A stretch of 29,043 bases of DNA, taken from positions 130,159 to 159,201 of the forward strand of contig NPFB01000009.1 in the NCBI GenBank assembly GCA_014084085.1, read 5' to 3'. The position numbers and the translations under genes were made by a program. Source of the stretch: Hondaea fermentalgiana (taxonomy: Eukaryota > Sar > Bigyra > Thraustochytrida > Thraustochytriidae). Of the stretch, positions 7,542 through 13,737 are shown one piece after another (the first letter of the stretch is position 1; each line of letters opens with the position of its first letter). The notes below the pieces were generated by a model, which saw only the letters and a list, made by a program, of their open reading frames with translations, was not told the DNA's origin and ran no database searches.

Positions 7542-10500
7542 TTAATTATCAAGCGCACTTGCACGCAGCGCCCTTCGCACACGAAGACATAACTCTGAAA
7601 TGAGCGCAGGCTGCTCGTGGTCCACCAGGTAGGTAGCATTCTCCTTGTTTGTCTTCGCGCGCCATGGGAGGACCTCGAGCTCGTCGAGAAGCTTCGTTTG
7701 CCATTCGGGCTTCAAGTCTTTGCGATCATCTGCGAACTTCCACTTATGGTGGACCGCTAGAAGCGGTACATTTGCGGGCGCAGCATCGAGTGCAGCATTC
7801 ACATCAGCTTGGCATTTTGGTTCCAGGACAACGAGAACAACGGGGGCTTTCTCTATCTTGCACAAGTTCGCCCCAGCATCTTGAAGCAGCTCCTTGAGCT
7901 CGTTTGCAATCGGTGACGATTGCTTACTCACAATGCAAAGACGCAGCTCTGACGATTGCGGCGGGGGCAGGGGCACAGCACGAAAGCCTGCGTGTCGTGC
8001 AAGTGCTCGGAGCATCGCCTCTTCTTCGTACATTCGACGACGGTATGGAATCTTGCTGCATTCTCGGACCGTATTTTCGGCATCACGCAGAACTTCTTGA
8101 GGGTCGAGGTCGAGGCTAGCGAGCCCTTCCTTGAGCTTTTCGATATCAGAGGCTTTGATGGACGAACTCCACGGGACGTTTTTGTCTTCATCCCACGCGC
8201 TGAAACGGCTGTCTCCCTCAACGACGAACGTTATGTACTTTGTGACCCCCCCTTCCAATCTGGAAAAGCGATCAATCGCAAACTTGAGTTCCGCAAGGCA
8301 AAAAGGACGGAAAAGCACATCTGTTGTCAAGACCATGACAAATCGCTGCGAAGATAGAACTCCGCGCTGCATGGACTTGAGCGTGATCTCACTGGCGCGC
8401 ATATCGACCCATGCCGTCATTTCGTTACGCTCGAGGCCCATCAAGAGGTCCTTGACGGTCCCCGCTGCCTGCGCTTGCATGTGAGAAAGGAAAAAGTGGT
8501 ATGCCGGGAGCTCAATGAGTTCGTTGTGCGCAGAAGCTGCGTAGAATTTGCTCGTATGACTGTCATTTTCGAGTGGCGGGGCTGTCGTGCGACCAAAGAG
8601 ACTAAAGCGTGTCGGGACCACGAGCCTGTGAAGGCCCATAACTCGCTCGGAGAACCGCGGGTTTTCTTGGGTGTTCGATCTACGCGGTGAGTTTCCGGAA
8701 TCGTAATCTTGATCCTCGTTGGAGTCGTTGCCCTGGCCCTCGTTCACGTCATCTTCTTGATCCTCATCATCCTGATCCTCGTTTGCGTCATCCTGATCCT
8801 CGTTCGAGTCCTCGCGATCCCCGTTCGGATCATCCTGGTCCTTGTTCGGCTGGCGCGCATTCAGGCGTTCAACATCGAAAAAGGGGTGATGTTCAACGAT
8901 CTGATCTACGCTGATCCGCTCACTCGGGTCGCCACGCAGACACAGGCGCACAAGGTCGCGTGCAGCTTCAATCTCAAAGTCCGTCGCAGTGAGACCATCT
9001 GCCTTTGACTTGCCCGTCTTGCCTTTGTCCTTGCGCTCGTTCTTGTCTTCCCGCTTTTGGATGCGGTGAAGTCGTTCGTTGTCTAGGGCAAGCCAATTCA
9101 TCAATTCCGTCTTGTCGTTGTTTGCGATGATGTTGTCGTCAGACTCGTCAACCATGAAAAGCTTCGTACCAGAAAGCAGCTGAAAGAGTACCACGCCAAA
9201 ACCCCAGACATCGATTGCTGGGACGGCCTCGGGTGCCACTCCCCCTTCTGTTCCATCGCGAAACTCCCATCGCGCGACTTCAGGCGCCACATAGCCAGTG
9301 CTCATTTTCCCGGTGAGCAACTTTCTCTCGTTGGGGTGTTCTACGCTGGAGATCTCCGCCGATGCATCCAAGTCAATCAGCTGCCAGTCCTCCTCGTCTG
9401 CGGCATCGAAGAGCTCCCCAGCGCTATCGTCCTTCCATGCCTTCGAGACTTCGAATTGACCGCCTTTTGCGCCATCTTTGAATGTGTGTTGCTTTGAAGC
9501 ATTCACGCGCACCACGTTCCGCGGCTTGATGTCACCGTGGATACGACCACTGTTGTGAAGGTTCTGAATCACGCAAATTACTTTGTACGCGATCATACGG
9601 ATCTTTGGCAGGTCTCGACCAGCAAATCGCTCCGTGTTGATGGCTTCGAAAAGCGAGCGAGAGGCTTGCGTCATGACCAAACAAAAGTCCTTGTCGAGGG
9701 CTTCTGCCAGTTCCGCGTCGTCGCGGTACAGAATCGACATGCAGCCGTCGACGGCCATTCCATCCGCGTCGCGCGCATCCTTTTCACGCTCGTACTGCTC
9801 TTTCACACGCATGATCTTGAGGGCCACAGGGCCGTCGGTCTCAATATCTGTCCCGAAGTGAACTGCGCAAGTCTTGGACTCGTGCACGGGCGGGCCTTCC
9901 GCGATGCGGAAGCGTTTGAGATACGTCCCGTACGATCGGGCCCAGTCCGAAGTATTGCTGTTTGCGAACGCGAGCGGCTGCAGAGACCGGCCTCCAGAGT
10001 CCTTGGCGTCCATCATGAGGAGTCCGTCTTCCAAACGCACCCAGTGATCGAACAATTCGCAAAACCTCCCGGGGAGGGCAAACTCATTGGATACATGACA
10101 GGCGAAAAGGGCATGGATCAAAGGAAGGCCTGTCGTAACCTCGACTCCGTCGCATTCCACAGCCTCCTGAAGCCAGAGACTGGGGTCGGAGAGCAGAGAC
10201 TGCACCTTGGTGTCCTTTTCGTTGAGATTGAACATCAAGACCGCAAAGACGTGTGCCGATTTCTGCGCCATCATGTGAGCATTCAGGGTCCACGCGTCGG
10301 ACTCACTGTCGAAAAGATAGTCGCGAATCCGCTCCATTCGCGCTTCCCCCTTCGGTGCAGAGAGAACCGCTCTCCACATTGAATCCAGATAGTCCTCCGG
10401 GAGGCCACTGACAGAACACATTCGAAAGGGTCAGTTTCCGCGGACTAAAATGACCGCAAAGCAATTATAGACTTACAGTACCTGGACCAAGGTATCGTTC

Positions 10501-13384
10501 TCGGTCAAGATCAGCTCCGCCAACGAGGCGATACCTTCGCAGTTAATCTCGTTGCCCCCAAGACTGTGCATGATGTTGTGAGGAACGTGAGTCGATCTGC
10601 CCTCTGCTACCCTTGCTTTTGACTCTCTATGAATATTTATCGCCCCCCGCATATACATGCCTGCCACCTTCAAGCTCGTCCTTCCACTTACACCAACGAG
10701 GTGAGCGAGCTGTTCTTGCCCAAACCTTTTCCGAGTCCGACCGCGCCCTTGTCTCCAATTTTGTTGCCGCGAAGGCTGTGCAGTATGCTCAAAGTGTCAG
10801 TGTCAGATTCCCAGGCTCCTACTGCCATTGCCTACCTTTGCGAAATCCCAGCTTTCGCAACTCTCCACCACACCGAATTCCCTCTTTGAGAGTAAGGTGC
10901 GAACAAACAAACTTACATTAAGGAGTCCAGAGAGCTGTTGTTGCTCAAGGCATCGCCGAGCGCGATGGTGCCCGATGCGCCGATTTTGTTGTCCTCAAGA
11001 CTGCGCATAATTATTAGCGTAATAAGTGCCAAGTGTAAGCGTTCGTTCATTCGAGCGTCCCGCCTTCCTGCTTCTCGGCAAAGCATGCTGGCGCCTTGCC
11101 TCAAATGACGCGCAACAAACATACATGAGTTCCTTGAGCGAGCGATTCTTGCTCACGCCTTTCCCGAGCCCGATGGCACCACTGTCACCGATCCTGTTCT
11201 TCTGGAGACTGTGCATCGCGATGGTGGGTGGAAACGGCCCCTCGACAATGTCAGTGTACGCTCTTCGCATTTCGATTTCCCGTGAATGCAGCCTTTTTGG
11301 TGTCGTCTCAAAACGCGAACGAACGACACAAGCTTCAAGCAACGTACGTCATGAACGTCAGCGAGCTACTCTTGCCAAGGCCTTTTCCGACCGCAGCAGC
11401 GCCCTTGCTGCCAATCTTGTTGTAAGAAACGCTGTTTGTCATGATTGTGGCGAAAAGTGCAAAGCGTCAGCATCAAACTCTCGTCTTGGTGGGGATTCCC
11501 GCCTCTCATTTTTGCTTTTCTCTGTATTTGCCGCCTACACACCCTTGCCCGCCATCTTCGAGTCAAAAATCTGGACAAGACACTTACTTGAACGAGGTCA
11601 GCGATTTGTGTTTACCCAGGCCCTCTCCGAGACTCTGACCGCCCGCAGGGCCGATGTTGTTCCACTGAAGACTGTGTGTCGATGTGCATTGTCAGAGACC
11701 GTTACCACATTCCCGTCGACTTGCCCGACATGGCCCTTTTTGAACTGATGGGACTGCGCAATTCGACATTCAACTTACGTAATCGAGGTCAGTGACTTGT
11801 TCTTGCCCAAGCCTTCCCCGAGCGCGACAGCGCCGTCGTCGCCGACCTTGTTGGAGTGAAGGCTGTAGATAATGATCGCGGCGAAGAGCGTGAAATGTCA
11901 GTATCTACCCTTTGGTGGTGCCACATTTGCGTCATTGGACGAGGGCACCTGAAACTTACTTCAAAAGTGTCAGCGATTTGGTCTCGCGCAGACCTCGACC
12001 GATCTCAGCAGCGCCCTCATCGCCGACGCTGTTGTTGTGGAGACTGTGTATGGAGTGCGTGTCAAAAGACATATTATCGTTAGAGTGCTGACAACACGTT
12101 CCGCCACAGTCAAGCTGCTTTGACGAAATCCTTGCCGGTATCGCCTCGGACCGTCTTTCGAAGAGCCATATGCGCAACCTACATCAACTCCTCCAGCAAG
12201 CTCTTGCCCAAGGCTTTCCCGAGAGCGCTGCCACCCTTTGCCTTGATCATGTTGCTATCGAGACTGTGTATCATACGATGGTGGTGATAATGTGAGTATT
12301 TTACACTGAACACCAGGCCATCTATTTCGTCTCTGCAATTCTGCGGCTAACGTACTTTAGGACCTTGAGCGGACAACCCATGGTCAGAGCTTCCGCGATA
12401 GCAAGTGCGCCGGTAGGTCCGATGGCGTTACGGTCTTCCCACCAATTGCCTCCGAGACTGTACAGAAAATCAAATCGAATTGAATGTGTGTGAGTCCTCT
12501 CTCTTCAATGATGGTCAACTTTCGCGCGTTCATGCTTCACTCTTGAGCAAGAGCTCTTTTAAGATCGAAGGTGTCCAGGTAACGCTGCCGTTTCAACTAC
12601 TTACTTGAGCGAGGTCAACGTCTTGTTTTTGCTCAGCCCTTTGCCAATCGCAATGGCACCCTGCTCATGGATGATGTTGTTGAAGAGACTGTGATAACCG
12701 GCCGGCCGGTTATGAGTTAGTATTTTCCTGTTTTCGATTTTCATTCATCTCGTCTCGGCCGTCTTGGGCCAGAGACTCTCTGAGACAAGGTGTCGAAGGG
12801 AAGAAAGGAAACTCACTTCAGCGAAACGAGCGAGGCATTCTTGCCAAGCTCTTCTCCGAGTACCTCAGCGTCTTCATCGCCAATTCCACGATCAGCGAGA
12901 CTGCGTATAGATGTCAGTATAAAAAGAAATCCGTCAGTCAAAGTGAAAGAGTGTCAGACATGCAAGACTTTTTCAGTGAAAAAACGTACTCGAGCTCTTT
13001 GACGCCTTTGCGCATCAGTGCAATCGCAGCATGCACCGCATCGAGTCCACGAAGCCGGTCCTCGATGCCATCTTCGGGGACTTGATCATCGTTCTCGTCG
13101 TCACTGCGATCGCCGCCACCGCCGCCGCTGCCATCGTTATCATCGTCGTTGTCATGCTCCTGACCGCCACCATCATCTCCTCCGTCGTCTCCCCCGTTGT
13201 CTCCATGCAGGGACCCCGTCTCTTGTACATGGTCACCTTCATCGTTGGGGTCGCGAACCTCGTTTTCTGCGAGATTACGACTCTCATCGTCTCCATGGCC
13301 TGCGCTACGCGCGGAAGGAGACGTGCGTTCGGCCTCCGACATGCGAGAAGCGTATCTAAAAAGCGAGGCAGTAAAGCTCTTCAT
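7542..13384 (-). CDS. LRR-kinase-TIR receptor-like protein, 14 exons
   Basis: Splicing model (minus strand): exons 13384-12990, 12900-12817, 12688-12605, 12457-12356, 12263-12183, 12043-11960, 11862-11779, 11671-11588, 11431-11348, 11208-11125, 11000-10917, 10775-10692, 10563-10477 and 10407-7542. Together they give 4287 nt and 1428 residues with no frame break. All 13 introns are phase 2, with GTACGT, GTAAGT, GTGAGT, GTAGGT or GTATGT donors and AG acceptors. Domains: acidic Gly/Asp-rich N-terminus (1-120); 12 RI-type LRRs (about 130-473); kinase (about 630-985) with VALK Lys671, HGDIKPRN (Asp766, Asn771), DLD in place of DFG (819-821), APE (848-850) and DVW; acidic NEDQD repeats (about 994-1044); TIR domain (about 1109-1215) with FFLSH and FCLAEL (Glu1180); and an alpha/beta-looking tail (1294-1428). 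There is no signal peptide or membrane segment, so it is probably cytosolic. A role in pathogen or stress sensing is inferred only from the domains. Met15 (13342) is an alternative start, and a 5' non-coding exon cannot be excluded. Confidence 0.85.
8697..8849 (-). repeat. In-frame minisatellite encoding acidic NEDQD linker
   Basis: Tandem units of roughly 18-21 bases (on the plus strand variants of CATCCTGATCCTCGTT) encode repeated NEDQDD/SNEDQD units between the kinase and TIR domains. The reading frame is kept throughout. The copy number is likely to vary between strains. Confidence 0.85.
10477..12900 (-). repeat. Array of 12 one-repeat-per-exon LRR exons
   Basis: Exons 2-13 of the gene each encode one leucine-rich repeat of the ribonuclease-inhibitor/NLRC class. 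Nine are exactly 84 nt (28 codons); the others are 102, 81 and 87 nt, all multiples of three. Each starts with a base completing the previous codon and ends two bases into the next, so all are interchangeable. The consensus begins LxxNxIGxxGAxALG and continues xGLGKNxSLTSLN. Introns are 69-156 nt. Several share a recognisable stretch just upstream of the acceptor (A/G-CTGAC-A/G followed by TTTCA/CTTTG-like sequence), which suggests duplication of exon plus flanking intron. Confidence 0.88.
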
Positions 13385-13717: not shown

Positions 13718-13737
13718 GGGGGGGGGGGGGGGGGGGG
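13718..13737. repeat. Run of 20 guanines preceded by GT repeats
   Basis: A GTGTGTG tract runs directly into 20 consecutive G, then TGT. It lies about 330 bases upstream of the LRR-kinase-TIR start on its 5' side. It could form a G-quadruplex. The exact length is unreliable because homopolymers are prone to sequencing error. Confidence 0.9.

Follow-up and report, generated by a model that had tools for sequence, protein, structure and literature searches.

Hondaea fermentalgiana is a thraustochytrid stramenopile, a single-celled marine relative of the brown algae. The window analysed here, a stretch of 29,043 nucleotides, lies on contig C217 of its 36-Mb genome and carries a gene on the minus strand that runs from 13384 to 7542. 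The gene model, rebuilt from the reverse complement, comprises 14 exons and 13 introns, all of which (13/13) are of the GT-AG type. Translation begins at an ATG at 13384, with an in-frame stop codon a short way before it, and ends at a stop codon at 7544-7542. The coding sequence of 4287 bases specifies 1428 residues, and the single spliced frame of this length proposed in the initial annotation was thereby recovered.

Gene structure and the evidence for the fusion

The encoded protein consists of an acidic N-terminus, the products of 12 LRR exons, a helical linker, a protein kinase, an acidic linker, a TIR domain and an alpha/beta domain, in this order. All coordinates given here refer to the minus strand. 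Exon 1 (12990..13384) contains the start codon and the acidic, Asp/Gly-rich N-terminus, and it ends in the first LRR strand. Exons 2-13 (10477..12900) are twelve one-LRR exons in phase 2 that encode residues about 132-473. Intron 13 (10408..10476; 69 bases) separates the last of these from the kinase-TIR exon, exon 14 (7542..10407), which encodes residues 474-1428 and thus both linkers flanking the kinase, the kinase itself, the TIR and the C-terminal domain. The acidic linker (residues 990-1060; 8649..8861) holds 26 Asp/Glu among 71 residues and has low model confidence.

A Pfam search of the spliced protein detected LRR_6, Pkinase and TIR_2, the families named in the initial annotation, each above its own cut-off and in the order LRR, kinase, TIR. 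This supports both the content and the order that had been read from the sequence (12 ribonuclease-inhibitor-type LRRs, kinase, acidic linker, TIR); that list had left out the C-terminal alpha/beta domain at about 1295-1427. No NB-ARC or NACHT match was found in the spliced protein at E up to 0.01, and Pfam detected no ROC-COR domains. Similarly, no membrane segment was found in a scan of hydropathy windows: the best 19-residue window scored 1.62 and lies within the kinase. The absence of a nucleotide-binding module and of a membrane segment, both claimed earlier, is in agreement with these results.

The database protein for the window locus, P0001 (931 residues), begins within exon 14 and has no LRRs. 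Comparison with the paralogues, however, shows that the AG splice acceptor of exon 14 keeps both its position and its phase in 7/7 loci, namely the window locus and six paralogues, and that coding sequence precedes the point at which P0001 begins. The first full codon after the acceptor encodes Gly in 6/7; the comparison covers the 7 of 11 loci whose kinase-exon start motif was picked by eye. Intronless paralogues on C106 and C9 encode LRR, kinase and TIR in a single open frame (1313 and 1570 residues, respectively), the C9 paralogue with a TIR_2 score of 26.7 bits, below the 28-bit cut-off. Two proteins from other sources, P0008 and P0009, also have the LRR-kinase-TIR order with all three Pfam families above their cut-offs, and the database models of the paralogues P0002 and P0020 link LRR exons with the kinase. 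Given the acceptor conserved in 7/7 loci, the intronless fused paralogues and the fused P0008 and P0009, the LRR-kinase-TIR fusion in the window gene is real.

The gene, noted earlier as a single one, is in addition a member of a family. A search of the genome with exon 14 returned 29 matches, which were sorted into types of loci by our own reading. Long frames that include both kinase and TIR are present at nine loci (C217, C162, C13, C161, C213, C218, C183, C106, C9). C221 encodes only the kinase, C14 and C217:525754 are stop-containing remnants, and three of the 29 matches are distant and comprise the TIR only. Ahead of the kinase exon there are at least 5 one-LRR exons on C13, at least 9 on C161 and at least 20 on C213, so the family is characterised by a variable number of LRR exons.

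A putative LRR sensor built from exon cassettes

The N-terminus of the window protein is strongly acidic, with 33 Asp/Glu among the first 110 residues, and a similar acidic N-terminus leads into the first LRR of P0006. The LRRs that follow are of the ribonuclease-inhibitor type (LRR_6, E 3.9e-32). Nine of their exons measure 84 bases, with one each of 102, 81 and 87, and 12/12 are in phase 2 with one LRR per exon; the LRR exons of the paralogues are likewise mostly 84 bases long and in phase 2. A profile of the LRRs of family homologues, built without the window gene's own LRR exons, has PDB matches among ribonuclease inhibitors and NLRPs. In an AlphaFold model of the whole of P0008, an LRR solenoid of eight strands, for the most part with pLDDT above 90, is followed by linker, kinase, TIR-like and C-terminal domains.

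Variability within the repeat is concentrated at a few positions. Among 42 of 45 LRR exon candidates (three of other length were excluded, and the exon scan missed the 102-base exon of the window gene), positions 3, 5 and 2 are the most variable of 27. Only 1/2925 triplets is as variable as 2, 3 and 5 (0.00034), a value that is no blind test, since this triplet was named after the window repeats had been viewed. Positions 2, 3 and 5 are those which we take to face the concave side of the solenoid. At these positions pN/pS is 0.99-1.14, compared with 0.69-0.82 at other exposed LRR positions and 0.19-0.35 at positions with a structural role. Positive selection could not be demonstrated for the LRR face, as pN/pS is about 1 at the presumed concave positions and pS there (0.54-0.67) is near saturation. 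The concave positions thus appear weakly constrained, which is compatible with diversifying selection and is no proof of it. There is also no sign of recent exon duplication: mean LRR exon identity is 44% within a gene and 43% between genes. This similarity suggests that the gains and losses behind the varying LRR exon number are probably of old and not of recent date.

Kinase, TIR domain and their relatives

Exon 14 was modelled with AlphaFold from 15 sequences (mean pLDDT 72; model residue + 474 = protein residue). The model places linker helices at its residues 9-158, and the linker as a whole spans protein residues 475-636 (9921..10406). An alignment with ankyrin-bearing relatives shows little or no variation in the motif D..GR and the following WA ahead of the kinase, and the helical linker is perhaps ankyrin-derived.

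The protein kinase (residues 656-981; 8886..9863) matches Pkinase with E 2.6e-20. Its motifs VALK, HGDIKPRN and LIDLDA retain the catalytic Lys and Asps, with Lys671, Glu682, the HGD Asp766, Lys768, Asn771 and the DLD Asp819 as the relevant residues. The claim of a kinase therefore stands, with the correction that it is atypical: HGD replaces HRD, DLD replaces DFG, and no GxGxxG glycine-rich loop was found ahead of VALK. HGD lacks the Arg of HRD, and kinases of this non-RD type are frequently found in plant immune receptors. The kinase motifs are kept in the window protein and in most of 30 relatives. Within these 30 kinase rows the catalytic-loop pattern is unmatched in P0007 and P0011, the VALK pattern in P0038 and P0041, and the DLD pattern in P0041. 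In the case of P0007 this is a gap of the database model, which skips the catalytic-loop stretch; the DNA of the locus on C183 (L016) encodes HGDIKPRN in frame.

A profile search for relatives, in which about 8000 candidates were scored, yielded 66 proteins, and 23 of the 66 were read as sequence; the first alignment used 11 of 17 matches, without P0011 and P0013-P0017. Domain combinations differ among these relatives. Ankyrin repeats occur with kinase and TIR in P0023, P0026 and P0034 and with TIR in P0013. P0038 (Aphanomyces stellatus) and P0014 (source label Tetstr1) are ankyrin-kinase proteins with no LRR or TIR among their listed domains. The ankyrin-bearing proteins of both kinds, from other protists and further sources, have a kinase related to that of the window protein and resemble it also in the residues that immediately precede this domain. 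P0021 (943 residues) combines LRR_6 and kinase with Peptidase_C14 (E 9.7e-18), a caspase domain in place of the TIR. In a kinase tree of 30 rows, labelled by us from Pfam and our reading of the loci, the window protein groups with five other LRR-kinase-TIR rows (98/96), and the 13 LRR-TIR rows require two label changes; P0021 is unplaced where long branches meet. The pre-kinase residues common to the ankyrin-bearing relatives suggest that an ankyrin-kinase is the older form and that LRRs may have been placed ahead of it later.

Relatives in other domains of life were sought with patterns drawn from the kinase, which cover kinase relatives and say nothing about TIRs. Among viral contigs, 51 stretches matched and 0 were confirmed; among bacteria and archaea, 35 matched and 2 were confirmed, in the kinase region only and at 23-25% identity. 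The PADLOC matches are all confined to the kinase and its surroundings (exon-14 residues 164-547). No choanoflagellate was found among the organism-named matches, a minority of the total, in three protein searches with about 8000 scored candidates each.

The TIR domain with its C-terminal elements extends over residues about 1108-1283 (7980..8507). TIR_2 matches residues 1112-1204 with E 5.8e-7 and 30.5 bits against a cut-off of 28, and it falls below the cut-off in the relatives P0002, P0007, P0012 and P0019. In the exon-14 model, strands and helices alternate in the order of a TIR between model residues 636 and 730, more elements follow up to 805, and the predicted TIR has a long insert after beta-D. 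A separate alpha/beta domain is predicted at model residues 821-953 (protein residues about 1295-1427; 7548..7946). Fold searches with this model returned kinases only, with one domain filling the match lists. A tandem TIR was also considered, and comparison of the C-terminal domain with the TIR profile gave a probability of 5%; a second TIR is not claimed.

Compared with solved structures, the family TIR profile matches Cat1 best, though weakly (E 0.0023); further matches at E up to 1 are TLR6, TLR1, AbTIR, SARM1 and RUN1, mixed with three DDX3X chains. A putative catalytic residue, Glu1180, lies in the CLAEL motif of the window TIR as its alpha-C glutamate, and TIR profile alignments place CLAEL opposite the WC..EL of the Cat1, TLR6 and TLR1 TIRs. 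This glutamate is present in 14/15 family rows, with Gly in P0002; the TIR alignment was made without 4 of the 15 rows. The TIRs of TLR6 and TLR1 are not known as NADases. As they have EL at the same alignment place, the alpha-C glutamate alone is not diagnostic of a NADase. Its occurrence in TLR TIRs, together with the lack of any sign of recent exon duplication, slightly lowers the likelihood of NADase activity. Plant TIRs depend on the alpha-C glutamate to hydrolyse NAD+ (PMC9153377).

Comparison with known systems and a possible receptor function

The order of domains had initially been called unusual, a description that calls for correction. Choanoflagellate Kinase TLRs have the architecture LRR-TM-kinase-TIR and Kinase TIRs combine kinase and TIR without a TM, and both were termed unique to choanoflagellates (Richter et al. 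2018, PMC6040629). As described there, Kinase TLRs share the order LRR, kinase, TIR with the window protein and differ by a TM segment between LRR and kinase, whereas Kinase TIRs share the missing TM and the window protein adds the LRRs. The likeness is one of architecture; compared with the choanoflagellate proteins, the window protein has a stramenopile host, one-LRR phase-2 exons, a helical linker and an extra C-terminal domain.

The exon arrangement also has a counterpart. According to Teng et al. 2024 (PMC11378527), brown algal LRR-ROCO genes have one-LRR phase-2 exons of 72 bases that undergo exon shuffling, and they are candidate immune receptors for which alternative splicing and diversifying selection are reported. 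These genes and the window gene are both stramenopile and have one LRR per phase-2 exon, but the former combine 72-base exons with a ROC-COR GTPase, while the latter combines mostly 84-base exons of the ribonuclease-inhibitor type with kinase-TIR. Oomycete LRR receptor kinases, likewise stramenopile proteins with LRRs and a kinase, are described as membrane proteins with two LRRs, and the consulted portion of the 2010 survey mentions no TIR in them (PMC2939053).

Both the LRR-kinase-TIR order and the LRR exon device were therefore already known. The novelty lies in the stramenopile lineage, the absence of a membrane segment and the LRR sensor encoded by exon cassettes, all in one protein. The combination of domains extends from choanoflagellates into stramenopiles, where it occurs without a membrane anchor and with a sensor built by the genomic device of the brown algal LRR-ROCO genes. 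No earlier report of a thraustochytrid LRR-kinase-TIR protein was found among the matches listed by searches of open-licence papers.

The domain order, the gene structure, the conserved catalytic residues, the family, and the variable number and surface of its LRRs are established, and from them a function can be proposed. The balance of probability tips slightly towards a cytosolic receptor in which LRR sensing acts through the kinase on a TIR NADase to bring about defence or cell death. The window protein would belong to a thraustochytrid receptor-like family without a membrane anchor. A ligand, be it microbial, self or a damage product, would bind the variable concave LRR face and cluster or open the protein, and the kinase might then phosphorylate the acidic linker or adjacent copies of the protein. 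The TIRs would assemble and split NAD+ via Glu1180, and a signal nucleotide or the loss of NAD+ could trigger a defence or cell-death response. Ligand sensing, the coupling of kinase to TIR, NADase activity and an immune role are what we infer for the window family. The TIR glutamate, the variable LRR face and the caspase-bearing cousin make a role in innate immunity or cell death, as envisaged in the initial annotation, plausible. SARM1 and the plant and bacterial TIR NADases have the same alpha-C glutamate, and the NADase activity of the window TIR is putative; unlike them, this TIR has a long insert after beta-D.

A wider reading is more tentative. Animal and plant NLRs are cytosolic, and their central module is accompanied by an LRR sensor and an effector of the TIR or caspase type; the window family follows the same plan, and animal NLRPs have the LRR class of the family profile. 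NLRs have NACHT or NB-ARC in the centre, whereas the window protein has a kinase there and no NACHT or NB-ARC was found. It is possible, if somewhat less likely than not, that labyrinthulomycetes and other protists have a kinase-centred counterpart of NLRs, in which an atypical kinase replaces NACHT/NB-ARC between interchangeable sensors, either LRR exon cassettes or ankyrin repeats, and equally interchangeable death effectors, either TIR or caspase, to give an expandable intracellular recognition repertoire. Should the immune interpretation hold, a thraustochytrid would have its own expandable repertoire of intracellular receptors, and whether a kinase can do the switching of NACHT/NB-ARC becomes directly askable.

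Alternatively, the TIR may be a scaffold, the protein resembling a MyD88-IRAK pair in one chain whose clustering recruits other TIR proteins, for example Roco-TIRs, with the kinase as the output. Possible partners abound, as the genome contains 74 TIR_2 matches, 68 of them above the cut-off; P0002 retains the domain yet has Gly for Glu; the TIRs of TLR6 and TLR1 have EL with no known NADase activity; and the catalytic residues of the kinase are kept. On the other hand, a pure scaffold would not need the glutamate found in 14/15 rows, and we regard this alternative as unlikely. The genome does contain a large Roco-TIR family: in the open frames of the best 30 of the 74 TIR_2 matches (G000, L028-L057), COR-A is present in 18/30 and Roc in 8/30, and the same frames include ankyrin repeats in 4, WD40 in 1 and another protein kinase in 1.

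More improbable still is a stress or developmental regulator, in which the LRRs would bind house-keeping partners and the TIR would adjust NAD+ in the manner of SARM1. Its neighbourhood would fit, since none of the neighbours looks immune: three of six other long frames scanned near the gene have clear Pfam matches, to a RIO2-type kinase, a CRT-like transporter and a thiolase. The failure to show positive selection is also in its favour, but the variable face and the spread in LRR cassette number, at least 5 in one gene and at least 20 in another, suggest recognition of partners that change. A two-gene arrangement, with the LRRs in one gene and kinase and TIR in its neighbour, as the start of P0001 within exon 14 implies, is hardly credible and is rejected in view of the conserved exon-14 acceptor and the intronless fused paralogues, with the fused P0008 and P0009 and the joined models P0002 and P0020 also against it.

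Several database records of the family deserve mention. P0003 and P0006 are Hondaea family proteins on contigs of 82208 and 71999 bases, and the assemblies may differ; P0004 and P0005 read like the loci on C162 and C13, and the records may stem from more than one assembly. P0020 (locus L011; 2562 residues) represents the C161 kinase-TIR gene continued into an apparent next gene and is likely an annotation fusion. In the window itself, a run of 20 G lies at 13718-13737, some 330 bases upstream of the ATG.
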